Source of the DNA: Branchiostoma floridae
Lineage: Eukaryota; Chordata; Leptocardii; Amphioxiformes; Branchiostomatidae
NCBI RefSeq assembly: GCF_000003815.2
Contig: NC_049992.1
Coordinates: 19,047,707 to 19,111,706, forward strand
Reading direction: 5' to 3'
DNA: 64,000 nt
Below the pieces are notes generated by a model. The model worked only from the letters and a program-made list of their open reading frames with translations, was not told the origin of the DNA and did not search any database. Of the stretch, positions 3,686 through 25,074 are shown in pieces (within the stretch, counting starts at the first letter, position 1; each line of letters starts with the position of its first letter). A program made the translations under genes and the position numbers.

Positions 3686-4083
3686 TCAACACATACCTAA
3701 CTGGCAAATGAACGCCTTACTGCGGCTGCACGGTTCATCATTCCAGAAGAGCACATATGCACCAACTTCGGCGCAGTCTTCGCCTCCTTCAGACAAATCG
3801 TTCGGCTCACCCGACTTCCAGTTGGTATAGCCGGATGATTCCAGGATTTGGCCGTCTGCAAATACCCATCGACCTTCAGTGTTGGCGTCAGTCAATCCAA
3901 TCCAGCGCGGTTCGTTTGTTCCTCCCAGCTCGGGTATGAAAGTGTTGGTCGCGCAGTCCTTCGGCATGGCCAACAACCCTCCATCTGCGACGCACGCCTG
4001 TCTAGCATCACAATACGTCTTCCTTTCAGCAAAGTACTTGTAGCAGACACCATTAAAGCTGACGTAGTTTGCTTTTGGACACA
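3686..4083 (-). CDS. L1 exon: C-type lectin domain
   Basis: The exon follows TATTAG. It begins CPKANYVSFNGVCYKYF and contains WIGLTD, the GEPNDLSEGGEDCAEV block with EPN, and FWNDEPCSRSKAFICQ with WND. Six cysteines sit at positions typical of a long-form CTLD. EPN plus WND predicts a calcium-dependent mannose/GlcNAc/fucose-type site. The frame closes at TGA, but ICQLG overlaps a strong GTATGT donor, so the true 3' end is uncertain. Confidence 0.85.
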
Positions 4084-7000
4084 CTAATATAGAAGAAATG
4101 GGAAACTAGGTAAGGTGTCTGAAGGACAAGTGATTATGTTATTCATCAACAAACTTTGAGTGTTTGAAAAATGAATGATGTCATTGTACGTAGTAGAGTT
4201 TAAATCAGGTGACCATGGGTGTAGGTATTACCAGGGATATGGGTGGTGTCCGTAGTAGGCTGACCATCAGTGGAGGAAGTGCCCACCGTAGGTTGACCAT
4301 GGGTGGAGGTGGTGTTCTCTGGAGGATGACCATTGGTGTAAGGAGTGCTGAAAGCAGGTTGATCAGCCTTCATTGTCTGTGAATAGGAGAGATTCCTGAC
4401 TTAGTACAGTACATATGGTGCCAACAATGTCCTCCTAAAATGACATTATGAGTTAAGTACTTTTCCGATGGCTAAGTTAACCCTATTCCGTCGAGGAATT
4501 TTTGTTGCTTGACGGCAGCCGGGTACTTCACCTTACGAACAAGGTAATATAAAGATTTGGCATGTGAAACACGGCAAAAAAACAATACTAGTATACATGT
4601 ATATTAAATATAAAAGAGTTCTACTGATTTCTTACCTAACTAAAATGTTTTCTTAACCCTATTCAGACCGGGGGGGGGGGCTTTTGAGGCCCGCGCCAAC
4701 TTCGAGGTCCTATAACGCCAGAACGCCTTACGCTAAAGCCACCAAATTTGGTGAGTTTTCCTAAAATATTGTTGGCAACAATTTCAAGAAGTTTGACAAA
4801 TTTTCCATTTTTTCGTGTTGCCATGGCAACCGTTTGCTGACAGGCAGTTTTGCCAAAAATCACTATTTTTGGTTCTAACAATGTATTTTTCACATTTATT
4901 TGCTATATTACTGCTATTTTGTTACATAAATAAAATCTTATATTATTAAGCATATCTTTCATAATTATATATGCATAAATTATGCTAATTTGATGACGTC
5001 ATCAGCCCAAAATCCAAGATGGCGGACCGCATGGCCAGATCAAAAATAACAAGCTAATTATCCCTTAAAATTTGTAACTACCTGGTATTTTTTCATCAAA
5101 AACCATCTAAATGAATGAATTTAGTCTATTTCCATTGCCCTTTGTGATTATTTGTTGCAAAAAAAGTAGTTTTAAAAATTCCAGGTGGTGGATATAATAT
5201 GGCGGAGCCTAAATCGTATCTTACATGTGCATAACGTCATTTTATGACGTCATTATGACGTCATCGATGTTGATATTGGCAATACAAGTCGTAAAAAACA
5301 TTATCATTCTGTTATCTGCACTTGTTATTACATTTTTGTAGTATAACTCGAAGTTTTCTGAGAATACCCTTTTTTCATGGGTCCGGCCAATATAATCAAA
5401 TTGATGACGTCATTATTACGTCATTTTACGTCAACGTAACGTCAAACGTCAACTACTTGCTAGATATTATGTCGATATTATGTCCTGAAAATTTGGTGGC
5501 CCTACGGCACGTCGTTCAAGAGTTATAGGACTTAGAAGTGGAGGGCCTCAAAAGCCCCCCCCCCCCGGTCCAGGGATGACCAAAAAAGCCCGGTCTGAAT
5601 AGGGTTAAAGCCCTTACATTAGCTATGAATCGTTCAGTGTCATTGGTCAAGCCTTGATAATGGCCAAACTTCAAAAGCATCAAACAATGGCTTGTTTAGC
5701 AACTTTCCTGTGAGAAAATGTTATTTTTAACCGTTGCCATGGCAAACATTGTAGAAATTTGTCTGATTTTATTTCAAAATGGTTCCAAATATATTCAACA
5801 GGTATTTGTATGATCTAAGTGCAGAGAAATACTCATCAAAATGTGGTTGTGGATTATTAAACCGCATTTGATGACTTGTAATAAGCGATTTTTGTTAGTT
5901 CCATAGATTTGAGTGACGTCACAAAATCACGTGATAATTCCTATAAAGCTAGGCATCTGACATGGTTATCATGCAAAATAATAAAGTAGAAGAATCAACC
6001 TTTTCAAAAAAGTAAGTCACCCTTTGTCCCTTTGTTTGGTACCAAATGGCCATTTTTGGGGACCTGGCCCATGGACTAATAGTATGCTTTGCCTCGTCCG
6101 CTTTTCCTGAAATTATATCGACATTAGCACAGCATCGTTTGTCCCCTTCTCAAAGAAGGCACAGCCTCTTTATTTCTTTTACACGCTATTTTAGTGCCTT
6201 CAAAATTAAATTAAAAGTCAGTATAATAAAAATTGTGGTGGTGGTATACAATCTAGTTCATCAACATTATTTATAATATACAAATACAGATAGGGTACAT
6301 CTCGAAACAAAATAAAGACTGTTGACCTACCTTTTGAACTTCCCGAGCATTGTTGCTAAAATAAAGCCAGGTTCCGAAAATGATCAATGCTGCCAACAAG
6401 GTAGTTATTATCACGGCAAAGCCAATCCTGCCATAAGTGCAATCTGAAAATACATATGATGGAAACGTCTCTCTGAAAATGAAGCACGTATTCAGGCTAC
6501 ATATATTACAGATAATAAGTTGTGCATTCTTATATAATGTAGCATGACTTCTAAGTTTGTATTTAGCTTTGTTGGTATTAAAGCCAGTCAGCCATTAAGA
6601 ACTGTTGTACAATGTACTTATGTACTTCATCGAAACTTCAGCCAATACTTTTACACTTTTTCTACGGAAACATAATTTCAAACGTTTCTTGACATCCAAA
6701 ATAGGAAGATAATATTTGAAAATAGGTATTTGAAACAAATAGCCTTTATCTATTTTTAGATGCAAGATGATCACATACATTTGTGCTCAAATTGAACAAC
6801 TAGTTTATATGTGGAATATCATTATTTTTCACTTTGATCAGATATTGCTCCAACACCGCAATAAATGTAATCAGTAACTTAACTCTTAAAGAGCACAAAG
6901 TGCATTTATTATGTTTCCTTTTGATAAGGTTACATGAAAATATATCTGAACCTAAACAGATAAATAAACTTACGGCGACGTGCTTGTTGCGGTACGTTTG

Positions 7001-7712
7001 GCACGTACATCGGATTCCTGTTCAGGGCGTCTCGTATGGAGTTCGGATCTGGGCTTGGCATATGTCTGTTTTCATGTATGTCATTGTTATCATTTCCAGG
7101 AACCACGTTGTCACCATTACGTTCAGTTAAGTTGCATTCTAACGATGGGTTTGGGAATCCATATGCGACGGCATAAGGCATTTCAGGGTCTAGATTGGCA
7201 TCATTGTCTGTGATATCGACTTCGTCAGGAATCTCAGAATAAATGTCGTCTTTGTTTGTTTCATTGTTACCATTATCGTCGTTGTTTTTTGTGTATCCTG
7301 AATTTTGCGGTGAGGTTGGATTACTGTTCGATTTCGAAGCCTCCGTGTCACTCTGACAAATGCTTTCAGCGTCAGCTTTAGCGCTTGTTGTGTCAAGCAT
7401 ATGATTCCCCTCATCATTCTCATTATACTCGATGGATACTTCTTTTCCTGAGTGACTGGCGTTAGTCGGTCTCTCATCTGTATTTTGAAGTTCAGGTTTG
7501 GTAGTGCTATCTTGAACAGGAACCGAGCTGTCAGTATCATTCTCAGGGCTGCATCTTGTTTCGTACGTCGGATTCGGGAACACGTTTGTAACAACATAAG
7601 ACCGATCTTTCTGTATTTCGGCATCTGAACGAATTTGCGTCAAACCACCTTCGGAAACACCGTTTGTGTGGACTGTTGGTACAGCATCAGTGGTGATGTT
7701 GTCTTCAGCCAT
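3686..7712 (-). CDS. Type II membrane C-type lectin-like receptor (paralogue L1), four exons
   Basis: Predicted coding exons are 7712-6974, 6443-6331, 4373-4232 and 4083-3686, with phases that agree at all three introns, giving about 463 residues. Residues 1-246 are an acidic, Asn/Ser-rich cytoplasmic tail with NPTY and NPMY motifs. One transmembrane helix (about residues 254-276) follows basic residues without a signal peptide, so the N-terminus should be cytosolic. A Thr/Pro stalk of four 11-residue units leads to a C-type lectin domain with EPN and WND motifs, the signature of calcium-dependent mannose-type binding. The last exon could end at TGA 3686, or at an upstream GTATGT donor leading to another exon. 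Introns hold a TTAA MITE (4653-5608). No orthologue name is assigned. Confidence 0.75.
4232..4373 (-). CDS. L1 exon: Thr/Pro stalk repeats
   Basis: The exon follows TTCACAG, encodes TMKADQPAFSTPYTNG, and continues with units such as HPPENTTSTHG, QPTVGTSSTDG and QPTTDTTHIPG. The period is 11 residues and there are about four units. It ends one base into a codon at GTAATA, which joins in frame to the lectin exon (forming Val). Ser/Thr richness suggests an O-glycosylated extracellular stalk. Confidence 0.65.
4653..5608. mobile_element. TTAA-ended MITE, copy 2
   Basis: It starts TTAACCCTATTCAGACCGGG and ends CCCGGTCTGAATAGGGTTAA, a perfect 20-bp inverted pair including TTAA. G-run and C-run tracts lie just inside. 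The interior shares GCCACCAAATTTGGTGAG, TTGCCATGGCAACCG and repeated TGACGTCAT blocks with the other copies. It sits in intron 2 of receptor L1. This is the cleanest pair of termini in the window. Confidence 0.8.
5609..6330. other. Intron 2 remainder of L1
   Basis: This intronic stretch is AT-rich, with a TTGCCATGGCAAAC block and scattered TGACGTCA-like words that recall the neighbouring MITE family. No further coding exon or clear repeat end was found. Confidence 0.4.
6331..6443 (-). CDS. L1 exon: transmembrane segment
   Basis: This 113-nt exon (entry phase 1, exit phase 0) follows TATTTTCAG and precedes GTAGGT. It encodes HCTYGRIGF, then a ~20-residue hydrophobic run rich in I, L, A and T, then FSNNAREVQK. 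The paralogous exons are 113 nt (17294-17406) and 116 nt (24253-24368) with the same CTYxR and NNxRxxQK borders. Confidence 0.75.
6974..7712 (-). CDS. L1 exon: start codon and cytoplasmic tail
   Basis: The exon begins MAEDNITTDAVPTVHTN and ends VPNVPQQARR plus one base at a GTAAGT donor. It contains an internal repeat: VVTNVFPNPTYETRCSPEN resembles YAVAYGFPNPSLECNLTERN. KDDIYSEIPDE matches a half-ITAM pattern (acidic at -3, YxxI). RNPMYVPN carries an NPxY-type endocytic motif. A CAG acceptor lies just upstream of the ATG, implying a separate 5' UTR exon. The paralogues at 17969-18119 and 24924-25074 keep only the two ends of this exon, about 50 codons. Confidence 0.75.
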
Positions 7713-9640
7713 GATTACTTCCCACCCTGGATATACATGTAGTTGTAAAAATGCTTATCCTTACCATCATAGTGTCGTATGTACTCTACCTCCCTCCGTC
7801 CCTCCCATATCATATTTCAGTGATTACCCTTTATGTCATAGACAACCAGTTATATAGTGGACATGTTCTTTATTAAAGGACAGCATCAGAAAATCCTCAA
7901 ATCATTATTTTCCAGTAGTTTACTCATTAAAAAGTTGATGTACGTCAATTTTTACATTGATCCGCCTAATATGACCCTGTAGACACGTTTGAACTTCGCG
8001 CTCTCCTCCTCTCTTCCGCCGCGCTGGGCCATGACGTAATGGCCCCGTGCTGATCGTCTGACGTCACGGATCGGAAACTTCTGGCCAGCCATTTTGCTCG
8101 GTGAACCTCGATCCTTTCAGCGGTAAATAATCACTCCACCATTCTGGAGTTTAGTCCGCTGTTGTTGACAATTACCTTCGTGGACCTGTAAGTCGCGTTG
8201 TGAGCTGTCTACGAAGCCATAGTCCCCGGAAGACTGAACATGAATGAGCTTGCCTGCGAGTAAACCGCGCGGCGACGGAACGAAATCAAAACAATGGTGG
8301 TGGGGGAGGTTCACGCACCGTGCCATTCTGGACTGTTACAGGAGCGAGTTCGAGTCAGTTCTTACCTTCTCCTTTCCGGATAGCACATCGATAATTACAC
8401 GTAATCTTCCACGAATTAGGGTTGAATTTACAGTTGTCCAACTAACATTGACTTTAAACAAAACCGAGTTTTCGTGACATTTTTCCTCTGACAACATACC
8501 CTTGATATATGGTAAAAAAAGTTCAACCAGAAAGGTTGTCTTCATAATTGTCAGGGAGGTTGTGCACACACAGTACTGCGTACACAAAAAAAACGGTACA
8601 CCAAATAATAAATGATTGATTTTGTTCTTTCACAACGTTTTTGACTTGAAATAGACGTTTGCATCCAATGATCATATTATACGTTTTCCGATATTTTCTC
8701 TTCAATCTTCGGCGTATTCTTTTGCTTACATTGCGGATGTCTTGTAACATCTATTATCATAATACCGGTACGTTTACGACGATTTCTCTAGCCATACTGA
8801 TTTGACAAATTGTCAACGCATCATTTTCTCCAGTTACATGTTGCTGTTATAGGTTACCCTTGCCACTTCTTCTATGTAACTTTTCTGCCACTCTTGTCCT
8901 GCTAAAAGCGTAATATTGTAATTGTAACACGCCGCGGAATTACACGGCGAACGGGCGCGCGTGGTTGGGAGGGGGTAAAAATACCGGTAGGAAGAAACAC
9001 GGCACAATTAACTGTCGTTATGTACCTTTATACATCCCCTGATGTTCCTTCGGAGTTCCTTTTCTGTTCGTAAATGCATAAAACATGAGCATACAAATGT
9101 CATGAGAAAACGGACGTATACTGTCAAGAATTTTCATTTAACTTCTGTCCGTCACAACCGCTATGACGTAACACTTCACTGCTAGCGTAGACATAAAAAT
9201 GGCGGGAAAATGGCATGCGTACGTTCAATTTTGTCCATTCAGTCATAGATCCGGGCTATTATGCAACGGTTCTTCACACTTTTACACGAGTTGTAGGTCA
9301 CCAACAGACATTCAAGATTGTTGTTTAATCATCTTCGTCTTGTGCCGTGAGCATGTGTAATTATGATCTATAAATTTGGCAATGAACGTGACGGTGTGTT
9401 CGTCCCACGACGAGCTGCCTACCTCGAAAAAGATACTGAAAACTTTTGGCCTTGTTGTCTTCGAATGCATTGTTATCGATGCTTTGTAAATGATGTATTG
9501 GACACCTAGATGTCTGAAGTGTGCACAGCTCAGAAATAACTATTGTTGCATGTGTAGATCTCATTAAGTTCCAGTATTTTTAATCTACCGGTATAAGTCT
9601 TACTACCGGTATTATGCCAATGCATGTTACTATTTACAGT
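7713..9640. other. Non-coding region upstream of the L1 start exon
   Basis: No supported coding exon was seen. A GC-richer patch at about 7990-8330 carries TGACGTAA (8032-8039) and TGACGTCA (8059-8066), CREB/ATF-type words, and GCCATTTTG. This patch could be promoter or first-exon sequence for L1 or an undetected gene. The rest is ordinary AT-rich sequence with short chance frames. Confidence 0.35.
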
Positions 9641-9689
9641 ATGGTTGAAAAATTTGTTTTGGAAACAGCCGAAAATGGATGTGGGCATG

Positions 9690-10560
9690 CACAGTTTTTT
9701 CATCAGCATCAGACAAACAACACGTCAAGTTCCTAAATATTTATCATATATTTGCGTTACGTCAGCGAAGTTCAAGTCAATATCCCTGGCGCCATTGTGA
9801 TTTCAAACATTGAAATATTTGCCTTCTTTTCATACATTTTTTGCTGTGTTATAGTATACGGGTTTGATTAATAATTTCTAAACTTGTTACTTGTAACCGT
9901 AGCTAACTAGGGAGTCGTGCGATATTTGATAGAACAAGTTGAATGCCAACATACTGTCTATTCCCTAAAATCCCCCTGCAAATGAAAATAAAAAAGTGCA
10001 AAATGCCATTGAACTCTTGCATAGAAACAACCTTACTTCAGACTCATCACAATATTGCATCGTATATTTGTGAGTCTTCTAGATCGAAGGTGGGTGGCTC
10101 TCCGATAGTACAATAAGAATGGTTCAAAAAAGTTATTGTGTGAGCGTAGAAAAAGGCACTTGCAAAGCCTGTTTAAGAATTGATATAATAAGTGCACAAG
10201 TTGCTTAGTGACAGTTCAGTAAAGTCTATAAGACTAGCGCACAGTCTGGTAGGTTGTACCCCGAGTTTATCATGGTTAAGAGTAACAACACAATTTAGCG
10301 TGGTGTGGAAGTCAGACAGAGATAAAATGTGTTTCACATTGGGGTTTGGTGCCTTTATACTAGAGGATGTTGTTTTTGTTATTTAGGATAATGTTACTTT
10401 TATCAAAAAGAGTATATACAGTAGTTTACCTTCGGTTAGAATAAAATGAAGCATACACATATAGATATTGTATATCGCCAGGGGAAGCTTCATTATTACT
10501 ATAATCGATGATAATAGTATAGGTTATTCATGCATGAAAGAATAAAGTGGAATGTTCAGT
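9690..10560. repeat. Upstream receptor module, copy a
   Basis: About 420 bp (roughly 10138-10560) recur in the same orientation at about 13566-13955. Shared blocks include GTGAGCGTAGAAAAAGG, TTGCTTAGTGACAG, AATTTAGCGTGGTGT and CGCCAGGGGAAGCTTC. The preceding CATCAGACAAACAACACGTC block has relatives at 12565, 19520 and 26400, near each receptor paralogue. No coding exon is evident. Confidence 0.5.
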
Positions 10561-11240
10561 GAGCATTATATCAAGGACTCAATGCAATATACGAAGTTAC
10601 CTGTCTGCGAAAGAACTTGTAAATTCCTTCACGTTATATACGGTAGACGAACCCAATTCTATTTCAAACTGTACCTTCTATAATGAAAAAAGGGAGCGTT
10701 TTAAAGATGCCACCAAATTCCACCCTAATGTCCCTACGTTTACAGACAAAAAGAAAACTACCCTCCTCTTAACACCACAAAACCCATACATTGAAAATGT
10801 GGGGTCCTTCGTCTTCTGCTGTCTCCGAAAAAGAAATCAAACCCAATAGCTAAGTTTTTGCTTTCTTTTGTTTATTTGAATTAATCGCTATAATAAGTCG
10901 TTTATTATTGTATACCGTTTACCATTGTTTGCCATTTTTGTCACTTTGGCAAGAACATGCAATAAACTTTCATTATTAGTCCAAAACTGGCCCATCGGTA
11001 TGTGATGCAAAATATTTAGCTAGAAACGTAGCTGTATATGTAATAAGTAAATGATATTTTTTAGCAAAAGAATGGCTACAGTCAGGCGTTCACAAGGAAT
11101 GATTTTTATTACATTGTAACTGATAACTAGATATTCCTGTAAGCACAGAATGACATATCTAAAACAGAATATGGGCTCGCTGCAAAAAATAAAAGGTCGA
11201 GACAACCCCAAGTGAGAACGAAGTCATTAGACATTTTGTA
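10561..11240. other. Unannotated AT-rich stretch
   Basis: It holds a 100-codon plus-strand frame (10547-10849) without recognisable motifs or supportable splice context. No gene or clear repeat is supported here. Confidence 0.3.
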
Positions 11241-11245
11241 CTCAC

Positions 11246-11345
11246 CGGATGGCTTCTACGACTCACCGTCATCTCACTTTATCCGGACTCAAACGTCAAC
11301 GACAGGACTGCGACAGAGTTCACTTCTGATGTCAATTTACTGTAA
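11246..11345 (-). other. Candidate 5' UTR exon for L1 (distal module 1)
   Basis: On the minus strand a GTGAGT donor abuts position 11246 (plus-strand ACTCACCGGATGGCTTCTA). The same layout of CTTCTA, TTTATCCGGACT and CAGAGTTC words occurs at 12215, 19134 and 26044, upstream of receptor start exons that each have a CAG acceptor. The upstream end is not defined. Confidence 0.35.
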
Positions 11346-12214
11346 AAAGACTCAAAACAAACCATTTTTGGGGCCCTAGTATTGTACCTCCATAGCAGCC
11401 TCTCTGGGGCCTTTTCCGGTCTTTTCTTGGCTCATAATACACTTTTCCTGGCCATTTCTTTTGTGTAGAAAATATACAAATCACAAGCTCATACACTTAT
11501 TTAAAGCTTGATTTTGTCCTCAACAGGAAGGTATTCCTTAGCCAAAAAACGTCTAAAATTTACAAATATCCCTTCAGTCCTAAACCCATCATTTGCACTT
11601 CACTGTCCCCAAAGACCCTACATAAACTCTATGCATGATTCCTGGATCAAATGTATAATGTTATATGCCTGTGAGATCTGGGACAAGGTTTGTTATTCAA
11701 AAGACAATTGTCCTGTCAAAATAACTCAAAACCTTTTTTTCTTGGTAAAAACAACCGGGGTGTGCACAGGAATTCATGTAACTATGCATGCAGGACAGAG
11801 CTTGGGATGTTCCCAACAGATATAAATTTTAGATATATCCGTCCGTGTAACAATTAAAAAAATACTGGCTAAGACTTAAACAGCTGGACAACTCCGCACA
11901 TTGTCAAGAATTCAATTTGGGATATGGTGAACAAAAAAATCTGGATACACCGTATCAAAGAAATAGTAGGTAGACTATTATTTCTTACAACCAACTACCC
12001 TACATTAGACAATAAGAATATATGATTGTATATTGTTAAAGAGAAGAGTGATATGTATTTTCAATTATTCTTTCATCAATTGTCCGCAGATAATGGTAAG
12101 CCAGGATTTTACAAAAAAATACCAAAGCCGAATACTCCTCTTAGACCTTGAGACTGTACATGCAATTAGCCGTCGGGCATAATTTTGCAAAATAGTTAGA
12201 CAGTTTATACTCAC

Positions 12215-12330
12215 CAGAGGTCTTCTATGATGGTGGCTCACAGTCCTCGCTTTATCAGGACTTAGACCTAAGTGACACGACTGTGATATTTAGTTCTCGG
12301 TAGACAGAGTTCGTTTCTGATATCGGTTGA
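12215..12330 (-). other. Candidate 5' UTR exon for L1 (distal module 2)
   Basis: A minus-strand GTGAGT donor (plus-strand ACTCACCAGAGGTCTTCTA) begins a block with CTTTATCAGGACT and GGTAGACAGAGTTCG, homologous to 11246, 19134 and 26044. It could be an alternative first exon of L1. Transcription is not shown by sequence alone. Confidence 0.35.
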
Positions 12331-13317
12331 CTGTAATGAATTATTCAAGACACAGGACGAACCATTTGCAGGTGCATAAAATCGGATGTAGATGCATTGA
12401 TGTCATCGCCTGTTGGTATGTTGTAAGTATAGTGAACAAAGTGCTTGTTTTTACAAATATGTACTTCAATATGAAACAATTGTTATCGTTTACAGTAAAA
12501 AATGCACCTGTGGTTTATACATTCCTTGTTACTAAAAGCATGAACTTGCCCTGGCACGTTTCCCAACAACATCAGACAAATGAAACGGCAGACTCCTGAA
12601 TAAACATCAATACACCCACCGAGTCACGCAAGGTTTCTTTATCGCAATTGCGGCTTTAGAAAAACTGGATCAAATGCCTTGGTTTATTTTTCTTAGTCGT
12701 TTCCTGATAATGGTTTTGTATTAGTTACACGATTAGTAACTTAACCACGTCGGCATTAGGCAAGTACGAGTTTGACAACATTATATCTCCCAAGTCCCAT
12801 TTTTTTTCAAAATCCCTCTGCTCGTTGAAAAAAAAAACATGTGAAATGTCACTTAACTCTTACATAAAGGCAAACGCAGCCATGCCCGAGACTCATCGTG
12901 GTATTCTTCGTGTATTTATATATGTTTACCTCCCAACACGAGGTGGGTATTTTTTTCTTGTACAATTCAAAAAAGTTCTAAAATGATGGTGTGCAAACGT
13001 TAAAAAAATGCTGCACATCATTAATGGGGAACTGCAAGAAAGAATAAATAAGAAAAACGTTTTTGGAGTAACAAAAATCTAGTTTACTAATGATTCCAAG
13101 TGCACAGGCTGCTCGGTGATAATGGCTTTTCAGCAATGACAACACGTGCACAGTCTGATAGATTCCAACTAATGATATTATAGTAAACTTAAACATCACG
13201 ACTCATTATAGATTGCTTTTTGCTATCAGATGCACTCCCTCCACACTGTATATTGAAATGTGTAATTGTTAAGAATAACGTTTGCTTTTACAAGAAGTAT
13301 GGCGATGACACATGGTA
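12331..13317. repeat. Upstream receptor module, copy c
   Basis: The first part contains ACGAACCATTTGC, GATGTAGATGCAT and GCCCTGGCACGTTTCCC. The order matches 19260-19550 and 26190-26430, upstream of receptor paralogues L2 and L3. No coding region is recognised. Confidence 0.45.
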
Positions 13318-13515
13318 TCTAAGATACGCATGACGTCATTTTATGACGTCATTTGACGTCATTGATGTTGCTATGGGCAACACATGTCGTAACAAACATT
13401 GTATTTCTGTTATATGCACTTGCTGCTACCTTTTTGTAGCATACCTTAAAGTTTTCTGGGAATACCATTTTAGGGTTCCAGTCAATACAATAGAAATTAT
13501 GACGGCATGAATTGT
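13318..13515 (+). repeat. Fragment of the TTAA MITE family
   Basis: TCTAAGATACGCATGACGTC, GACGTCATTGATGTTGCTAT and TAAAGTTTTCTGGGAATACC match in order the interior of the copy at 4653-5608 (about 5215-5400). Both termini are missing. This is a relic rather than an insertion with defined ends. Confidence 0.6.
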
Positions 13516-15184: not shown

Positions 15185-15606
15185 ACACTTGATTGGATCA
15201 TACTCCTACGCAGCTGTTAGACTACTACATATTTGATCATAGTGTAGTAACAGACTGTACATATTCTTAAGGTTCCCCAGTATTTACAGAAATGTACTGC
15301 ATGTATCTGTCTTGTCTAACTGTTCAACTACCCAAGTACTGCATGTTAAGTTACACATGTAATTCGTCCAAACACACCAATGTATGTTGTCCCTCCATGT
15401 GCAATAGTACTCGACTGTACAAACTCTAGTCATAGTGGTTGACAAATGTACTGTTGTTGTTGTTTTTAAGAAAAAAGAAAAAAATCCTCCTACGCAGGGA
15501 CATCCAACAGGGAAACCGCCTGTCTGTATGTACGCTGCTCTTTCAACCATCGCCCTTAGTTCCTGACCGCCCTGCTTATAAATATTAATGAGCTCAGTTT
15601 TGTATA
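15185..15606. other. Unannotated spacer
   Basis: No coding or repeat structure is supported. The 88-codon minus-strand frame (15284-15550) lacks recognisable motifs. Confidence 0.3.
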
Positions 15607-15608
15607 CA

Positions 15609-15685
15609 TGAATGAATGAATGAATGAATGAATGAATGAATGAATGAATGAATGAATGAATGAATGAATGAATGAATGAATGAAT
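15609..15685. repeat. (ATGA)n microsatellite
   Basis: Nearly uninterrupted tetranucleotide tract of about 19 units. Confidence 0.95.
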
Positions 15686-15929
15686 CTTTCTAGATAAACC
15701 TTTAGTTATTACTTTGTAACTTTTGTTGGGTTTATTTTCACAGATATTTTAAAAATCTTAAATTCTTTAACCATTTTTGGAGATCATTCTCGTGGTTATG
15801 GTTTACATTATATGTATCATGGGGCGTATGTACAATTGCCGTTTAAAAAGAATCCCTTGAATGGTGCCAGACGATTTTTGAGAGAAACATCCTGTTAATA
15901 TTGGCATAACATCTTTTTTTATTGTGCAC

Positions 15930-16215
15930 AGAGAACATCTCATCTTATTGGGCGTCACTTTTGACCCGCCTAAAACAAAATTTTTCGACCACATTGTTAA
16001 TCGTACAAATCAACTATTAAAGGGTTCCATACATGCTGAAAATATGAAAATAAAATCAAAAGATGGATGCTTATGAGGAAGAATCCTAAATTTAAAGTAC
16101 ACTATTTCTTTTCATAAGACAATTATTTCCCATCTTCTCTTCAGTTTTGACTTTTCCGGAGGAAGTCATTTATATGATTTAATCAACAGATGTCTTACAG
16201 GGAAATCCAGTCATT
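15930..16215 (+). pseudogene. LINE reverse transcriptase C-terminal remnant
   Basis: One frame reads ILLGVTFDPPKTKFFDHIVN followed by RTNQLLKGSIHAENMK, matching the LGVTxD...HI segment after the LINE RT palm. After a stop, TIISHLLFSFDFSGGSHLYD resembles the next LINE block. The remnant is antisense to, and overlaps the end of, the L2 terminal exon. Part recurs at 22216-22275 beside L3, so it predates the duplication. Confidence 0.55.
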
Positions 16216-16463
16216 AGGGGTACAGTACCAATACCCTGTCAGGAGTTGAAACAAAAAATTATCCCCGCACGTTTCAAGTTTCTTGTCATTCTTCTCTCTG
16301 TAGTTGACACAGTCAGGGCAGTCACAGTGGTCAGTCGAGCCACCGCACCAGTTTCCATCGGAGCAACATGGGGTTACACCGCCAGGATCACATTCAGCAG
16401 GGTTACCATCATCTGCAGGGTAACCCTGGCCGCAACGCCAGTCGTCTCGCCACTTCTTAGGAG
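16195..16463 (-). CDS. L2 exon: hevein-like (ChtBD1-type) domain
   Basis: After CCAATAG the exon reads PKKWRDDWRCGQGYPADDG, then ECDPGGVTPCCSDGNWCGGS and TDHCDCPDCVNY. It has eight cysteines, and the CC-x5-C-x6-C spacing equals that of plant hevein. The Ser after CC and the Trp before the next Cys are kept; the other two aromatic chitin contacts are Gly and His. The tail (about 35 residues) ends at TAA and overlaps an antisense LINE remnant. Confidence 0.7.
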
Positions 16464-18119
16464 CTATTGGATGAAGTGTTTATTCCGTCATCATTTCCAA
16501 AATTAGAATTCCACGATCTCATACTTAGAAAATATGAATTGATTGGCCAAAATATATTGACCTTTTTGACTGATGAATCCTAAAGAATATTTGTGATTAA
16601 TAATACAATTATGATCCTTATTCGCAATGAATTATATAACTTCTGTGGTATCCCGTAGTGTCTTGAAATCTTTTACAAGGTGACTATGCTGTCAAAGGCC
16701 TTCTCATAGTCTATGAAGTGTGCATATGCGATCTTAAATAATGAGTTGATTGTTTATGAGTTGATCATCCAATTCTAATTAGTATGAAGTTATTTTTAGC
16801 CTTCGTTTCCTTAGCTAGGCCAGGTTACATCAAGATTTTAGCAAAATAGTCCAGATTAAACCGCCTGAAAACTACAAAAACAATTAATCGGAGCCTAACC
16901 TCTGCCTGGAGAGTTGTCCACGGCAGGCTGACCAATGGCGTAGGTAGTGTCCACTGCATGATGACCGGGGATGAAGGTAGTGTCTTCAACAGAAGTATCG
17001 ATGCTGTAGGTAATGTTCGCAGCAAGCTGACCATGGGTGTAGGTAGAGTCCAAAGCAGGCTGAACAGCGTTGGATGTATTATAAACAGCCTCCATTCTCT
17101 GAAAATAGGAGATATTCTAGCTTTAATATAGGGCTTATACAGTGAACAGAACTGCCGACGAATGTAAATACGTACGGCACTTTTAATTATGTAACATGAT
17201 GTACAATCAACAATGCCTTCCTTAACATGTTTACAAGACACAAAGGCACACACGTAGGCTACATCCCGAAACGGAATGAAGACCATTTCTTACCTTTTGA
17301 GCGTCTCGAACATTGTTGTGGAAATGAATCCAGGTTCCAAAACCAACCGATGCCGCCAACAAGGTTGTTACTATCACGGCAACGCTCAGCCTTCTATAAG
17401 TGCACTCTGGAAATGCATATTATGGAAACGTCAAGGTGTTGGTGTTAATGACCCATGTATATAGCCTACATGTATTACAGATATTCTTGAGAAGAGGGAA
17501 TATAAAAGCCATTTTCCATGTAGCGCGACTCCTGTATGTGTATATACTTTTGTTTGTTGGTACGACATTATTACAAACAGTTACTACTAAAGCTAAAAAA
17601 AACATTGACATTCATTAAACTTAAGTCAAAACTATTACACTTCTTACAAAAAATGATAAAAAATTACTAAACAACAAAAAATGATACACATACATATACA
17701 ACTTTTAATGATATGTTTAACGTATTGAAAGTGATGACCATGAACTAGTTAATGCAAGACCATTGATATATCTGGAATATCCAAAAAGACTTCCAGTGAA
17801 ACATAAAATAAAACCGAAAACGTACCCGGCTAGCTATAAGGAAACAAGTAGAATTGTCAAAAATTGAGAATGAGTTTTTCTAATTGCAATTTAGCATGAA
17901 ATGCCATATATTTGTTCCTTTTTTTATATATTACTGAAATTAAACACAACTATAAAAAAAAAACTTACGACAACGTGCTTGTTGCGGTACGTTTGGCTTA
18001 AGCTTGTACATCGGATTCCTTTTCAGGCCGTCTCCCCTAGAGCTCGGATCTGTAGTCGGGATTTGTCTGTTTGTGTTGACCGTTGGTACGTCGCCTGGTG
18101 TGATGATGTCTTCAGCTAT
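16195..18119 (-). CDS. Type II membrane receptor with hevein-like ectodomain (paralogue L2), four exons
   Basis: Exons 18119-17969, 17406-17294, 17098-16900 and 16463-16195 join with matching phases (1, 0, 1) into 244 codons. The short tail ends NPMYKLKPNVPQQARC, followed by a transmembrane helix, five 11-residue stalk units (QPALDSTYTHG to QPAVDNSPGRG) and an eight-cysteine domain. In the expected start position the codon is ATA, where L1 and L3 have ATG, and the next in-frame Met lies about 40 codons later. In-frame stops lie immediately upstream. L2 may therefore be a pseudogene, start elsewhere, or contain a sequencing error. Confidence 0.65.
16464..16600 (+). repeat. AACTAGAG-family end fragment
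   Basis: AATTAGAATTCCACGATCTC (from about 16502) matches the left end of the repeat at 2575-3654. It is repeated as AATTAGAGTTCCACGACCTC at 22730 in the L3 unit. Only about 100 bp remain. Confidence 0.5.
16900..17098 (-). CDS. L2 exon: stalk repeats (five units)
   Basis: The 199-nt exon runs from TTTTCAG to GTTAGG. It starts RMEAVYNTSNAVQPALDSTY and contains five 11-residue units including QLAANITYSID, TSVEDTTFIPG and HHAVDTTYAIG. Exit phase 1 matches the next exon. Confidence 0.7.
17294..17406 (-). CDS. L2 exon: transmembrane segment
   Basis: This 113-nt exon lies between TTTCCAG and GTAAGA. It encodes CTYRRLSVAVIVTTLLAASV, a further short hydrophobic stretch, and HNNVRDAQK. It is the same size and phase as in L1. 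Confidence 0.7.
17969..18119 (-). CDS. L2 exon: short cytoplasmic tail, start codon lost
   Basis: The 151-nt exon reads AEDIITPGDVPTVNTNRQIP after an ATA codon and ends KPNVPQQARC at GTAAGT. Its partner in L3 has ATG and over 90% visible identity. It corresponds to the two ends of the L1 tail exon, with about 195 codons missing in between. Confidence 0.6.
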
Positions 18120-18481
18120 GTTTATCTATCAACCTGTATGCGTATGACATTTCATAATTCCTAGTTCAAACATGCAGTCGCGATGGATTATGGTCGCTGA
18201 ACTTTTACTTTAACCCCATGTAGACCATAAAGAACGTTCCCAACGACAACGCTGCGCTCTTTCTGCGGAGGTACCCCTCTCTTAAAAATAAAGACTTTTT
18301 GCACGTCACTTGCTTTGATTTCAACGACTTTTCAGTGACCGTCTGTCACCTTCCCCAGTAGAATTCCGACTGGTTTATATTGTACTGCAGCTATAGGCCT
18401 CTCTGTTTACAGAATTCGGTCACAAACGTTAAGTATTTTCATCATTAAAATGGTTGTTTATGCTTTATTCAGTGACGTACT

Positions 18482-19130
18482 AACCAGATGAAACTACAAA
18501 GTCAAACCACGTATGCCTCTCTATTCTTCTACACATATGCATCAGGCGTAAGACATCTGTACTCACAGCAAGGCGTCTGTGGGGGCGACTCGTAGCAGAC
18601 GTCTTCTTCGCCTTGAAATTAGTCTCAGCTGCAAAACAATTCAATATTCAGTTCTCAGCAGAAAGGTGTAAACCGATCACAATCGCTTATAGATATGGCA
18701 GTATTTCAACAAATAATATATGAGGGAAATTATCAATAACTAGAGTTCGGCGACCTCATATCTCAACGGAATATTTAGAGCTTTTATAGATGTTATGCAA
18801 ATGAAATGCACATTTACATGATTTATGCATGGTGGTGTTGATCATTGATTACCTTACACATGTAACAAGTACATTTATAAATATAAATCCTATAATTTAT
18901 CATTATGCGATTTTGCCACTTTATACAAATTTATCTATACACCATAGTTGCATTGTGAGATGTGGATAAAATGGCAGGCTCGCTAATGTTTATGCATGGT
19001 AACGTCATATGTTTACGCGTTGGTAAAATACATGAGAGCAATCACGGCAAAGTTCATCACCACAGTTTAGCAAACGAATTGGTTTAAGTTCGGCGTGCTC
19101 AATCAAGTAAACAATTAGACAGACTATACT
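18482..19130. other. L2 upstream region, shared with L3
   Basis: From ACCAGATGAAACTACAAAGT this matches 25443 onward. A minus-strand GTGAGTACAG donor (plus 18561-18566) is conserved at 25521-25526 and could mark a 5' UTR exon. A truncated AACTAGAGTTCGGCGACCTC repeat begins at 18738. No coding exon is seen. Confidence 0.45.
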
Positions 19131-19133
19131 CAC

Positions 19134-19260
19134 CACAACTTCTATTGTGGTGACAAAAGCTTTGACTGGACTCCAAGCAAAATGTAGATAAGACTGCGAT
19201 ATTTGTTCCTGGGTAGACAGATTTATTTTGTTTCATTCCCAGTGTCAGTTGACTGAAATG
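19134..19260 (-). other. Candidate 5' UTR exon for L2
   Basis: The minus-strand GTGAGTATAGTCTG donor is identical to that at 26044. The exon-side sequence has AGTTGTG next to the donor and words shared with the L1 modules. The upstream limit is unknown. Confidence 0.35.
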
Positions 19261-19639
19261 AATTATTCAAGATTCAGGACGAACGATTTCGTGGATGCCA
19301 AACATCGACTGTAGATGCAAAAAAGTTGAGACCTCTTGTTAGCATAAATGGAATTAAGTAAATAGAGTTCTTGTCTTTACATAGATGTACCACATTACCA
19401 GACACATTTAATTGTGTTAAAATAAAAAGTGTACATATGGCGTATACAGACCCCTGTTGTTAACAAATACCTCAATAGATTTTTCCTGGCATTTATGAAT
19501 AAACATTAGACATGTCAGACAATGAAACATCGGGTTCCTGAATCGTTATCATAAAACCGCGTTGCGTAAGTTAAAGTCTAATATCGACGTAACCATTGGG
19601 ATTTTAAACATTGAAGAAAATAAAATTGAAGACGAATAA

Positions 19640-19845
19640 ATCTTTACTTCTGGATACTTTATTTTTTTACAGACGTTTCGGAAGGCATCCGCCTTCCTTC
19701 CTCAGTGAAAAGAAAATGAAGACGATTTTTTATATATATATATATATATTTTTTTTTTTACTTCTGGATACTTTATTTTTATACAGACGTTTCGGAAGGC
19801 ATCCGCCTTCCTTCCTCAGTGAAAAGAAAATGAAGAAAATAGTTT
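19640..19845. repeat. Tandem duplication with GACGTTTCGGAAGGCATCC motif
   Basis: Two near-identical units of about 85 bp (TACTTCTGGATACTTTATTT to GTGAAAAGAAAATGAAGA) are separated by a T/TA-rich spacer. GGAAGGCATCCGCCTTCC is itself a hairpin. This insertion is absent from the L3 unit. Confidence 0.7.
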
Positions 19846-20461
19846 GATGTTTCTCGAGCGTTTCCCAATGTGTCATAATGTACAGGTTTGTTGGTCAGTA
19901 CCTGAACTTGTGAGTTGACCCTTAGTAAGTAGGTAAATGAACAATATTTAATCTCGCAAGCCTTATGTCAAAATGCTTACTTTCATAAAAATTAGTCTCC
20001 TCATACAGTAGAAAAACAAAAGTGCGAAATGTCAAGCCTTTCCTCAGACGTATCACAAGATTGCTTGTCATATTCATGTATCTTTGACTAGCAAAGAAGG
20101 TTGTTGGTGAGCAAGGAGGCTCATCTGTATTTGTAGTAATCATAGCACTATGCTAAACTTTCTTCCAACAAAAATGTATACATACACGCTTTAAAACGCT
20201 CACTGAAATTTAACGTTAGATTTCTTGCATATAGAAACGCTGTCCTCTCTTAGTACATCCACATTGAATCACATGTAAATGAGGTAACAATTGAATTGAG
20301 CGCTTTTAGCCCCTTTGTAACGCTTTTATTTCATAGTTTATATGTCAACACACTATACGTAAATGTATGCAAAGCAAGAGGTCAGAGTTCAACTGTCAAA
20401 CTACTCTAAAAATCGATGAGTTAAATTCTTTGTCGCTTTCTTTGTTTTCAAACATCGGCGC

Positions 20462-20468
20462 AAACATA

Positions 20469-20530
<62 letters not shown>
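20462..20530. repeat. (TA)n microsatellite
   Basis: About 30 uninterrupted TA units. Reading frames through it on both strands give Tyr/Ile repeats and are not genes. Confidence 0.95.
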
Positions 20531-20531
<1 letters not shown>

Positions 20532-21149
20532 AATACTAGTATATATATCAGAGTTACCACAGCATTACTTCTCATATTCATATATCTTTGGCTAGCAAAA
20601 GAAGGTGGCTATATATAAAATAGTTTCATCTCAGCCGCTTCCTGATGTAAATAGGTTCAGTGGTCAGCATCCGAACCTGTTGGTTGGACATACTTAAGTA
20701 CGGATTCGTGCAATATCTCCCAAGTTCTATATCTAGATTGTACTACCTTCTTTTCCCAAAAACTAATCTGCAGCTGTCTGTAAAAAAAACACGATGGCAA
20801 AACATCGTCGAGCTTTTACAAAATACCAAAGGTCATCTTACTTCAGACAATAACAAACAAAAATTGCTTCTCATATTCATATATCTTTGTCTAGCAAAAG
20901 AATGTGGGTGGCTCTTTTCTTGCAAAGTACACAATAGTTTTAAAGAAATGGCAGTGTGTAAAAGCGACACATTAGTGTCAACTGGAAAAGCGAGCTACGG
21001 AAAGTTGTGACTCTAAAGTTTGCATCTGTTTCTCCACAAAAATAAAAAAATACATCATTTCACATAGGTGAATGTGCAAAAAATTTAATTGACTTAAGTT
21101 TTTAGCCCCCTTTTAGGGCTAATATTTCAGAGATCATGACAAGACACTA

Positions 21150-21940
21150 TGTATATGCATTTTCAACTTTTGAATTGCTGTAAAAATTGATAAGTTAATA
21201 GGCGTAAGTTACATTGTTGTTAAGACAACATCTCTAAAATTATGTAATATTTGAAATGTATATATAACATGACCATCAAGTCTCTATTCAAAATGCTAGA
21301 CTATTACTTAGAGACTGATTAGACCTATTTTCAAGCACCGCAAACTGTTTTATCATGATTCTATTTCAAATCCCCCTTAGAAATAGCGCGTGTCGGGTAA
21401 AATTGACATGGCTACCTTATTGCACAACTTCAGCTTGTACGGAGTCTTACATACATTTGTGATACTAATAGGAACAGAGGCATGTAGACACAAGTCTCTT
21501 CTTTTTCCAATTCTGAAAGTGTTTCATGGCAAAAAAAATATCAGTATAAAGATAAATGTCAGTCGCAGCCAATCCCTCCCAATGGCATATTATTTTTTAC
21601 GCACGTTCGAAAACGAATGCATCAGACGTAATGTTGACGACTACCGTAACGATTGATACTCTTGGACTGCCACATTTCAAACATCTATATTGGTAATCCC
21701 AGTGTTATGTGCACTTCAGATATTCACGTCGCTCGTGAGAAAGCCTTTTTTACAACATTTTTTATATTGCAATCTTAAGGTACCTAGGGAAACTACTAGA
21801 ACTTGAGATAGACCATAATCTACAAATGGCTCAATCCTAGGATCCTAAACGATGTTGTGTAGTTAGTTTGAAAAACAGTTGTTTATGTCAGTTATCAGTG
21901 ATGATTTCAGTTGGGCGTTCTCATGACTATACATTTAATG
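21150..21940. other. Spacer between duplication units
   Basis: AT-rich DNA with no recognised gene. The 88-codon frame at 21390-21656 has no motif support. Confidence 0.3.
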
Positions 21941-22205
21941 GTCAGTGAGTGACATCTATATCTCCCAGTCGTTTTAGCTTTCTCAGGAATAAGACCTTAA
22001 AGACACAACTACAATATTTAGTTCTGGGTCGACAGAGTTCGTGCCTGGCGTTAGATGACTCATGACGTAAACTATTAAGACTCAAGACGAACCATATTGT
22101 GGGTGCCAAACATCGAATGTAGATGCATAAACTTGTGATCGTTTGTAACGTGTAACAATAAATGAAGTACTTGCCTAAACAAATGTGGGCTTTATTATCA
22201 CACAA
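21940..22205. repeat. Diverged extra copy of the receptor upstream module
   Basis: GGTCGACAGAGTTCGTGCC, GACGAACCATATTGTGGGTG and CATCGAATGTAGATGCATAA match the modules at 12300, 19260 and 26190. The splice-donor word is not preserved here. Confidence 0.5.
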
Positions 22206-22295
22206 CTACTCATCAGTTTTTACTTTTCCGGAGGACGTCAGTTATATAATTGAATCCGAGTATGCCTTACAGGGTCAATTAGTGGTAGAGTAAAC

Positions 22296-22405
22296 TATAG
22301 ACACGAATTCCCTGTCAATATTGCCCAAAGACTTTTCGTCCCGCATTCTTTTTTCTTGCTCCTCTTCTTTCTGTAGTTCACAAAGCAACAGCGATTTCGA
22401 CAAAA
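22296..22405 (-). pseudogene. Partial duplicate of the hevein-like exon
   Basis: On the minus strand it reads CCFVNYRKKRSKKKECGTKS then LWAILTG, resembling the end of the L2 terminal exon (CVNYREKNDKKLETCGDN then FLFQLLTG). Most cysteines are absent. It lies just 3' of the L3 stop, suggesting a local duplication and decay. Confidence 0.45.
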
Positions 22406-22471
22406 CCTCGACGGCCTATCGCCCAGAATAAACTTGGACAAGGACATCTGGCCAATTAGGGGTACAGAAAA

Positions 22472-22692
22472 CTATCGACATGTCAAGATTCCCAAAAAGC
22501 TATTCACAATGCATTCTTTTTTCTTGTAGTCAACACAGCTGCGGCAGTTACAATGGTACACCGAGCTACCGCACCAGTTTAACCCGGAGCAGCATGGGGC
22601 TACACCGTCAGGGTCACATTCAGCAGGGTTACCGTCATCTGCAGGGTAACGTTGGCCGCAGCGGAAGTCGTCTCGCCACTTCTTCTTAGGAT
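22472..22692 (-). CDS. L3 exon: hevein-like domain
   Basis: The exon reads PKKKWRDDFRCGQRYPADDG, then ECDPDGVAPCCSGLNWCGSS and VYHCNCRSCVDYKKKE, ending at TAG. All eight cysteines and the CC-x5-C-x6-C core match L2 and hevein. The tail after the domain is shorter than in L2. Confidence 0.7.
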
Positions 22693-25074
22693 CTATTGGA
22701 TGAAAGGTTTATTCCGTCACTACTTACAAAATTAGAGTTCCACGACCTCATACCTTTGCCAAAATATATTGACCTTTTTAACTGACGTGTCATTAATGGT
22801 TTCTGTGATTATACTAGTAGGATCCTCATTGGCAGGAATTATAAATTGATCATGTTATCATTTATTTCTAATAAAGGGTTAATGCCCCGCCCCGAGGTGT
22901 ATATGGTGCGATAACCACCGAATAAACCACCGAGTGAGCGTAGCGAACGAGGTGGTTTATGAGGTGGTTATCGCACCTGACCAGGGATTATCTCACCATA
23001 TACACCGAGGATAAGGCGGGGCATTAACGTTATTATCATATAGCCTATCCAACTGACAGTTATTTCACACAAATTCCTTTATAACAAATAAACACTTTAA
23101 TACATTACATAAAAATACATTTGCAACATCATCATCATTTAACTAATAATTTTAACTAATCATCTGTTTGTGAGATAGCATATCAGCATCAACATGTGGC
23201 TTATTTGCAATACAAACTACATGTATTAAGTAGAGTCCTGGTACCCCCCATGCAGAGCCTTTTCACTTGGGCACGACAAAGTACGTATATATGAAGTGAT
23301 TTAGGAAGGTACCGGCTTAATCACGTTAGAAAGCCATAATGAAAATGTGTAAAATCAGCATAATTCCTTTTCAAGTATCCCTATATTCCCCATGTGGAGC
23401 CCTAATTAACATAACCAATCAATCATAATTTTTTTGACAGTTATGCATGGTTTACACAAACAACAGTACAAAAAAAATTCATGACTGTCCCCTGTATAAT
23501 GGTGCGGTCCAAAAAGTGGTCGGTTATTAGAATAACCGACCACTTTTGAGGTTACTGCCTGATAACCCATGGGAAATGGGGGCCTCTGATTGGCCAACTC
23601 CATCTGGCTATATGATAATGTTGTTTAAAGTATAAAAGTCAGATCTTAACCTACAAAGTTATTGTTACCCTGGAGTCCAGCCTTGTTAGGCCGGTAGACA
23701 TAAAGATTTCAGTACACAATAGAAAGCCCGATAAAAACGCCTGACAAAATGTCAAAAAAGCCGGAGCCTAACCTCTGCTTGGAGAGTCGTCCGCAGCAGG
23801 CTGACCATTGGCGTAGGTAGTGTCCACTGCAGGATGACCAGGGATGTAGGTAGTGTCCGCAACAGGCTGACCATGGGTGTAGGTAGTGTCCGCAACAGGG
23901 GTATCAATGCTGTAGGTGTTGTCCACAGCAGACTGACCATGGGTGTAGATGGTGTCCACAGCAGGCCTACCATGGGTGTATGTAGTGTCCACAGTAGGCT
24001 GACCATTGGTGTAGGTAGAGTCCAAAGCAGGCTGACCAGGGTTGGATGTATTATAAACAGCCTCCCCTGTCTGCAGATAGGAGAGACTATAGTTTATATA
24101 GCCCTTACAGTAAACGATGAATGTAAATACGGACGGCCCTTTTTATTATGTAAGATGATGTACGATCAACAATGCCCTCCTCAACATGTTTACAAGACAC
24201 AAAGACATACACATAACATACATCCCGAACGGAATGAAGACCGTTTTCTTACCTTTTGATGAACGTCTCGAACATTGTTGTGGAAATGGACCCAGGTTCC
24301 AAAACCACTCGATGTCGCCAACAGGACAGTTACTATCACGGCAACGCTAAGCCTTCTATACGTGCACTCTGAAAATACATACGATTGGAACGTCAATGTG
24401 TTGGTGTTAATGACCCAAGTATCTAGGTTACATGTATTACAGATATTCTTGAGAAGAGGGAATATAAAAGCCATTTTCCATGTAGCACGACTCCTGTATG
24501 TGTCTATACTTTTGTTTGTTGGTACGACATTATTACAAACAGTTACTAAGCTCGAAAAAATATCATTGACATTCATTAAACTTAAGTCAAAACTATTACA
24601 CTTCTTACAAAAAATGATAAAAAATTACTAAACAACAAAAAATGATACACATACATATACAACTTTTAATAATACGTTTAACGTATGGAAAGTGATGACC
24701 ATGAACTAGTTAATGCAAGACCATTGATATTTCTGGAATATCCAAAAGACTTCCAGTGAAACATAAAATAAAACCGAAAACGTACGCGGCTATAAGGAAA
24801 CAAGTAGAATTGTCAAAAATTGAGAATGAGTTTTTTAATTGCAATTTAGCATGAAATGCCATATATTTGTTCCTTTTTTAATATATTACTGAAATTAAAC
24901 ACAACTATAAAAAAAAAACTTACGACAACGTGCTTGTTGAGGTACGTTTGGCTTAAGCTTGTACATCGGTTTCCTTTTCAGGCCGTCTCGCCTAGAGCTC
25001 GGATCTGTAGTCGGGATATGTCTGTTTGTGTCGACCGTTGGTACGTCGTCTGGTGTGATGATGTCTTCAGCCAT
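22472..25074 (-). CDS. Type II membrane receptor with hevein-like ectodomain (paralogue L3), four exons
   Basis: Exons 25074-24924, 24368-24253, 24070-23773 and 22692-22472 join in frame (phases 1, 0, 1) into 262 codons, 261 residues. The order is a 50-residue cytoplasmic tail (MAEDIITPDDVPTVDTNRH start), one transmembrane helix, a stalk of eight 11-residue units and an eight-cysteine hevein-like domain. No signal peptide precedes the helix, so type II topology is inferred. The NPxY motif of L1 and L2 has become KPMY. The 1.1-kb intron before the last exon contains a foldback element. L3 is the intact member of the duplicated pair. Confidence 0.72.
22870..23630. mobile_element. Foldback/MITE-like element in the L3 last intron
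   Basis: GTTAATGCCCCGCCCCGAGG near 22879 pairs with ATAAGGCGGGGCATTAAC near 23012-23029, and inside it GATAACCACC pairs with GGTGGTTATC, forming a ~150-bp palindrome. AACGTTATTATCATATAGCC (23027-23046) is complementary to GGCTATATGATAATGTT (about 23607-23623). A second hairpin, AAGTGGTCGGTTATT/AATAACCGACCACTT, sits at 23513-23548. No ORF. L2 lacks it. Confidence 0.6.
23773..24070 (-). CDS. L3 exon: stalk repeats (eight units)
   Basis: The 298-nt exon between CTGCAG and GTTAGG encodes eight 11-residue units such as QPTVDTTYTHG, RPAVDTIYTHG, TPVADTTYTHG and HPAVDTTYANG. The DNA repeat is 33 bp. It is three units longer than the L2 exon (199 nt), with frame and exit phase preserved. Confidence 0.75.
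24253..24368 (-). CDS. L3 exon: transmembrane segment
   Basis: This 116-nt exon encodes CTYRRLSVAVIVTVLLATSS, a short hydrophobic stretch and HNNVRDVHQK. One extra codon (His) relative to L1 and L2 keeps the phase. Confidence 0.7.
24924..25074 (-). CDS. L3 exon: start codon and short tail
   Basis: The exon begins with ATG at 25074, just after a CAG acceptor, and ends PNVPQQARC at GTAAGT. The start choice follows the MAED start of L1. Confidence 0.7.

Follow-up and report, generated by a model that had tools for sequence, protein, structure and literature searches.

Unrelated ectodomain modules on a shared membrane scaffold in a putative type II receptor family of the lancelet Branchiostoma floridae

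Can a single membrane scaffold carry unrelated ectodomains, and are these exchanged by swapping the last exon? The question is raised by three adjacent genes, here called L1, L2 and L3, in a 64,000-nucleotide stretch of the Branchiostoma floridae genome (NC_049992.1, positions 19,047,707 to 19,111,706; hereafter the window, in whose positions the coordinates of L1–L3 are given). L1 carries a C-type lectin domain (CTLD), while L2 and L3 carry an eight-cysteine, hevein-like domain. We propose, with a probability of roughly 0.7, that L1–L3 belong to an expanded family of type II membrane receptors in which a fixed scaffold is combined with phase-1 ectodomain modules. The proposal builds on what can be observed directly, namely the modules, their splice phases, the genome-wide pairing of scaffold with head, and the discordant histories of scaffold and module.

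All three genes lie on the minus strand and are transcribed in the order L3 (25074 to 22472), L2 (18119 to 16195) and L1 (7712 to at least 3697). Each has a cytoplasmic-tail exon, a transmembrane (TM) exon and a stalk exon of 11-residue repeats, located as the initial annotation had described them. L1 consists of a long tail exon of 246 residues containing the NPxY motifs FPNPTY and NPMY (6974–7712), a 113-nt TM exon (6331–6443), a Thr/Ser/Pro-rich stalk exon (4232–4376) and a C-type lectin exon (3697–4083). In L2 a short tail exon of about 50 residues (17969–18119) is followed by a 113-nt TM exon (17294–17406), the stalk exon (16900–17098) and a terminal hevein-like exon with eight cysteines (16195–16463). 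L3 has a similarly short tail exon (24924–25074), a 116-nt TM exon (24253–24368), the longest repeat array of the three in its stalk exon (23773–24070) and a terminal hevein-like exon, again with eight cysteines (22472–22692). The NPMY motif described as common to all three tails is kept in L1 and L2, but L3 reads KPMY. Re-reading the splice phases gave the arrangement originally reported: the stalk exon exits in phase 1 and both the lectin and the hevein-like exons enter with two bases. Upstream of these, the tail exon exits in phase 1 and the TM exon has a two-base entry and a phase 0 exit. Tail, TM, stalk and C-terminal head can be joined from the genomic exons in one frame in each gene, the L2 and L3 frames running open through to the stop codon and the joined L1 frame also being open.

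Relatives of this scaffold were sought in the 513 Mb genome to which the window belongs, and all comparisons are made within that one genome. A search with the TM exon returned 54 genomic places at E-values up to 10, of which 37 lie on one contig (C14). In ungapped placement, 49 of the 54 have an AG acceptor and two bases ahead of the TM frame, the other five not being placed cleanly; with this many matches and this consistency of the acceptor, the resemblance among the TM exons of L1–L3 is not due to chance. Ectodomain searches scored the best 150 of 229 (hevein), 207 (F5/8C) and 1127 (CTLD) candidates, and pairing was confined to contigs with TM exons (85, 85 and 65 of the 150 places, respectively). 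Each TM exon was assigned those ectodomain exons that follow it on its own strand within 10 kb and ahead of any further TM exon. Under this rule 50 of the 54 TM exons have an ectodomain exon. The opposite strand gives none of 54, and a shifted-position control averages 2.2 over 1000 draws, with a maximum of 10; the 11 pairings found upstream on the same strand would follow from tandem arrays. When 14 scaffold genes of the cluster were read at length, TM, stalk and head followed in order in every one, and a tail exon was found in 12, the remaining two being cut by the end of the stretch read.

Hevein exons are present in 41 of the 54 scaffolds, F5/8C exons in 17 and C-type lectin exons in 12, in ten architectures. 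The commonest are hevein (24 scaffolds), F5/8C-hevein (11) and CTLD (6), with two cases each of F5/8C and CTLD-hevein and single cases of CTLD-CTLD-hevein, F5/8C-CTLD-hevein, CTLD-F5/8C-hevein, F5/8C-F5/8C-hevein and CTLD-CTLD-F5/8C; four scaffolds have none. The claim that one membrane scaffold carries unrelated ectodomains is supported by these sequences both in the window and among its relatives, which probably make up a family of about fifty membrane receptors. At three further places (L003, L013 and L017) hevein and C-type lectin exons lie near each other on a single strand, at a distance from every TM exon detected.

Could these proteins be secreted or structural, mucin-like or matrix components, and not receptors? 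The repeat stalk, a weak mucin-like match (E 0.19) and the 44 of 85 hevein exons examined that have no TM exon within 10 kb before them would suit such a role. Against it stand the conservation of the TM exon in 54 places, an acidic N-terminus with no signal peptide evident by eye, and the NPxY tail, and we consider it highly improbable. The order, read by eye, of tail, single TM helix flanked N-terminally by basic residues, repeat stalk and C-terminal head fits a type II receptor. Two or three NPxY motifs are present in each of six long tails read, and in each the count was reached by no more than 20 of 5000 shuffles. L1 shares FPNPTY with the genes at 18974 and 19534 kb, a sequence consistent with the FxNPxY signal for endocytosis or PTB binding. 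The likely job of these proteins would be the binding and uptake of glycan-bearing particles.

The head of L1 is a C-type lectin domain (PF00059, 8.9e-18, 65.4 bits against a cut-off of 22.6), with PDB matches to mannose-receptor-family, collectin and DC-SIGN domains. It has both EPN and WND, the sugar and calcium motifs of C-type lectin domains. Fourteen lectin exons lie within 10 kb after a TM exon; with C145:328737 left out and C8:24106741 running into N, 12 were read to their ends, together with a thirteenth (L090) 13 kb from the nearest TM exon. EPN is found in 10 and WND in 11 of these 13. The L1 lectin exon ends in a phase-1 donor-like site (CAGTTAG/GTATGT), and 11 of the 13 have AG/GTATGT in the corresponding position. 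The exceptions, C14:18890584 (G/GTGTGT) and C14:18893618 (G/GTTTTG), also lack WND, and both belong to gene C14:18889458. AG/GTATGT is better read as a splice donor than as coding sequence, because the base that follows varies at a coding position. The initial annotation was thus right that L1 carries a C-type lectin exon, but with its donor-like end this exon need not be the terminal one. Read past the site, the frame meets a stop at 3686–3688. A short last exon on the same strand (2548–2576; VLVLKYHVT, then a stop) is a speculative candidate picked out by eye, and comparable short frames can be seen by eye after some of the family's other lectin exons. The L1 lectin exon would either read through to the nearby stop or be joined to a short exon, for which this stretch is a weak candidate.

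F5/8C (discoidin) domains sit in relatives of L1–L3 outside the window. The one exon tested, in gene C14:18999079, matches PF00754 (6.6e-09, 36.4 bits against a cut-off of 28.2); its donor is altered and its frame runs on to a stop. Four other F5/8C exons have a two-base entry and a phase-1 donor-like end, and are followed by a hevein exon. Gene C14:18999079 was ruled out as a headless scaffold once its F5/8C exon had been found. A PDB search with one F5/8C exon gave a single match, SAKe6BR, in which no stretch passed on its own, and was not used.

The only good PDB match of the L2 and L3 heads is amphioxus PGRP3 (1.3e-15 and 1.7e-14 for L2; 6.4e-16 and 1.2e-15 for L3). The domain of Branchiostoma belcheri tsingtauense PGRP3 (BbtPGRP3) is described as having a hevein-like fold with four disulfides (PMC4610682). 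All eight cysteines, in the spacing of that domain, are present in L2 and L3, and of 30 full-length hevein exons examined, 28 retain the full set. That the last exon of L2 and L3 is hevein-like, as the initial annotation had it, is supported by this homology to a solved domain. Among the residues of the chitin site, across 31 distinct hevein exons, Ser is kept in 31, the second Trp in 30 and His in 30, and all three are retained in L2 and L3. AlphaFold2 models of two hevein exons were poor (predicted local distance difference test score 42) and were not used. One hevein copy (C14:19016786-19016956, L030) contains two in-frame stops, and an open F5/8C exon lies upstream of it in the same scaffold gene.

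How different heads come to stand on one scaffold was at first explained by a swap of the terminal exon, with CTLD and hevein exchanged as alternative last exons. Indeed, the heads differ, their phases are compatible, L1, L2 and L3 each have a single ectodomain exon after the stalk, and CTLD or hevein occurs alone in six and 24 scaffolds, respectively. No hevein exon was detected in the ~13.7 kb between the L1 lectin exon and the next gene; this interval holds a 34-bp, 88% match (2.5e-07) to DNA of the last intron of L3, not to an L3 exon, as well as a stop-containing TM-like fragment (E 0.004). However, two or three consecutive ectodomain exons are found in 18 of the 54 scaffolds, with hevein last in 17 of these 18, and the CTLD exons as well as four of the five F5/8C exons read keep phase-1 donor-like ends. 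A cassette with no hevein exon within 10 kb was found in nine scaffolds. Inspected by eye, most hevein exons of the scaffold type finish with a lysine-rich tail and a stop, and many hevein exons elsewhere have a donor-like site after CVDYR. Hevein looks like the usual terminal exon and CTLD and F5/8C look like phase-1 cassettes that precede it. The notion of an interchangeable last exon survives as far as phases and varied heads go, but not for the position of hevein, and evolution by a simple terminal swap, against which the multi-ectodomain scaffolds speak, seems unlikely.

In genes with several ectodomains, alternative splicing might also yield several receptors from one scaffold. Both the F5/8C and the CTLD exons appear to be symmetric (1-1) and skippable in frame, and some scaffolds have F5/8C, CTLD and hevein exons all downstream. 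Similar sequences upstream of L1 (two copies), L2 and L3 are likely to be 5' non-coding exons, on the minus strand and with approximate bounds. That of L3 (26041–26330, including upstream region) has a donor-like end, GGTGAGTA; that of L2 (19131–19414, including upstream region) is 82% identical to it. For L1, copy a (12213–12466) is 67% identical to the L3 sequence and copy b (11245–11345) was recognised by eye, without a BLAST match. With a further copy at 22070–22183, in which by eye the site is missing, four of the five similar sequences have this donor-like end. The two copies near L1 suggest more than one start. On the other hand, L1–L3 each have one recognised ectodomain exon. The L1 exons are unable to splice in cis to the hevein exons of L2 and L3, because both genes lie upstream of L1 in transcription. 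We regard alternative splicing as a possibility to be entertained, while leaning against it.

If CTLD and F5/8C behave as cassettes, do scaffold and modules share one history? A tree of the TM region was built from 49 of the 54 rows (C4:32813559 and four rows on C16 were dropped), and clade tests used the 45 labelled rows, four more having no head label. The CTLD carriers (12 of 45) were rejected as one clade by the approximately unbiased (AU) test (p 7e-07), with seven changes, at least three of them forced by starred branches. The same was true of the F5/8C carriers (16 of 45; p 2.6e-07; nine changes, at least four forced), and hevein-less genes were likewise rejected as one clade. The nearest rows to L1 are F5/8C-bearing genes and not the other lectin gene of the cluster, although support for this placement is not strong. 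Over 1.6 kb of tail and TM region L1 shares 79% identity with the lectin gene at 19035 kb; with the F5/8C-hevein gene at 19019 kb its identity is 81 to 88%, measured in shorter stretches of tail and TM sequence. L2 and L3 are 95% identical in the tail and intron 1 by global alignment; past the stalk this alignment broke down and a local one was taken, giving 76.6% over 354 bp around the hevein exon. Across 630 gene pairs, identity in the TM region correlates weakly with identity in the hevein exon (r 0.26), whereas the two TM halves correlate at 0.78. Swapped-topology tests of hevein versus TM, which left out seven of 36 genes as near-copies or for damaged hevein exons, were rejected in both directions. 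Because the modules do not follow the history of the scaffold, it appears sound to conclude that they have repeatedly been gained, lost or converted.

Several observations weigh against the proposed receptor family and the uncoupled histories of its modules. Identity in one half of the hevein exon correlates with that in the other at r 0.09, and because the halves disagree, some of the discordance must be put down to noise or to conversion within the hevein exon. TM region and hevein exon share nearest neighbours in 11 of 36 cases, a figure only modestly lower than in the controls (16 and 14 of 36). The AU test also rejects one TM half against the other and is over-sensitive here, so that hevein versus TM is separated from this control only by the Shimodaira–Hasegawa (SH) test and the size of the likelihood drop: the SH test rejects hevein versus TM and does not reject the TM halves (p 0.18 and 0.22), and the drop is 64 and 55 for the TM halves, 229, 169, 102 and 127 for hevein versus TM, and 358 to 507 for shuffled labels. 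The membrane topology was called by eye. Comparison of the L2 and L3 last exon with the curated Pfam hevein model (PF00187, ChtBD1), proposed in the initial annotation as a check, fell short, L2 giving no match and L3 12.1 bits (E 0.25; cut-off 27.8), and for this reason the hevein-like assignment rests on homology to BbtPGRP3. The first chitin-contact position, aromatic (Phe or Tyr) in three and Trp in none of the 31 hevein exons, is Gly in L2 and Leu in L3; with this aromatic gone, chitin binding by L2 and L3 is possible but not to be assumed. In BbtPGRP3, the W53A/W55A double mutant is reported to lose chitin binding (PMC4610682). A carbohydrate-recognition role, as first suggested, keeps EPN and WND in L1 and the Ser, second Trp and His of the hevein site on its side, but not the first aromatic. 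Finally, the start position of L2 is ATA (18110-18119) where 11 of 11 other tails read have ATG; in-frame stops lie just upstream, and the next in-frame Met is that of NPMY.

The ATA of L2 would also fit a family that is mostly decaying duplicates, with the L2 start lost and exons broken in some relatives, as would the two in-frame stops in the hevein copy at C14:19016786 and the F5/8C exon whose altered donor lets it run to a stop. But the L1 and L3 frames are open, the eight cysteines are intact in nearly all full-length hevein exons (28 of 30), and 49 of 54 copies have an AG acceptor ahead of the TM frame; decay as the general explanation seems to us very unlikely.

We therefore return to a type II receptor family with phase-1 modules, and outline how it might work. 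The fixed scaffold would comprise an N-terminal cytoplasmic tail, one TM helix and a Thr/Ser/Pro-rich repeat stalk of variable length, the tail being either short or long, with two or three NPxY motifs in the long version. On this scaffold a hevein-like domain would usually be terminal; CTLD and/or F5/8C cassettes would precede it or, in certain genes, stand without it. The proteins would be borne on cells, where their outer modules may bind microbial or self glycans: the lectin may provide calcium-dependent binding of mannose/N-acetylglucosamine (GlcNAc) type, and the hevein domain an altered binding of GlcNAc polymers. The NPxY tail would internalise ligand or bind PTB adaptors. Diversification of the copies may come from duplication, from cassettes gained and lost, and from gene conversion, aided by the shared phase-1 introns. 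A stronger version, to which we give some credence but would not commit, is a germline-diversified recognition system of a basal chordate, in which the constant NPxY scaffold undergoes ongoing cassette exchange and gene conversion by way of the shared phase-1 introns, with at least three unrelated ectodomain types of uncoupled history and possibly alternative splicing.

Other features of the window lie beyond these genes. On the minus strand at 38010–38297 there is an interferon-inducible-GTPase-like frame (PF05049, 2.7e-06), and a neighbouring frame (region 37467–38297) gave no match. A non-LTR-type (long terminal repeat) retroelement frame with endonuclease and reverse transcriptase, of which the first part was scanned, occupies 50097–53333 and is partly N. 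It is followed by an open frame with an RNase H domain at 55682–56824 on the minus strand (PF00075, 3.1e-20) and by clustered C2H2 zinc-finger frames at 57094–63570, the first of which was scanned.

Amphioxus hevein-like domains, CTLD expansions and exon shuffling are already known. A hevein domain on a membrane receptor had been singled out as notable. Hevein-type domains are best known from plants; they are known in animals too, amphioxus included, but the membrane setting keeps its interest. A membrane scaffold with hevein, CTLD and F5/8C modules was not found in searches of the open-licence literature, though earlier subscription-only work on the immune repertoire of amphioxus may describe one. 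If the proteins are made and borne at the surface, they would constitute a recognition-receptor family with unrelated binding heads on one anchor. If the reading is true, an animal hevein-type domain is placed on a membrane receptor, and exon exchange as a source of immune diversity becomes directly testable. The lancelet is, to our knowledge, a chordate relative without rearranging antibodies, and the locus is a concrete place to study how recognition diversifies in such an animal.

Vertebrate type II C-type lectin receptors such as DC-SIGN have an N-terminal tail, one TM helix, a repeat stalk and a C-terminal CTLD with EPN, and L1 resembles them in each of these respects. It differs in its single-exon CTLD and NPxY tail, and in having relatives with hevein and F5/8C modules mounted on this same scaffold. 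Metazoan extracellular proteins are known for exon-shuffled phase-1 modules with symmetric 1-1 domain exons, whereas here many scaffold copies bear different module sets within one genome, and mostly on one contig. Lancelet APEC-domain proteins, which include a fucolectin and two C-type lectin domains, are alike in multi-module recognition and presence-absence variation, but are described with CUB and APEC modules, and hevein is not mentioned in the available part of that report (PMC12373286). In nematode hevein-like domains the first aromatic is likewise replaced, by alanine or glycine, but those domains are described as accompanying GH18 chitinase domains and not a membrane receptor (PMC5297725). 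Closest to L2 and L3 in its hevein-like domain is BbtPGRP3 (PDB 4Z8I/4ZXM). As described, this protein has a signal peptide, an amidase domain and an N-terminal hevein domain, unlike L2 and L3, and Trp at the first aromatic position where they have Gly and Leu, but it shares with them an eight-cysteine hevein-like domain in an amphioxus, there too fused to another recognition module (PMC4610682).

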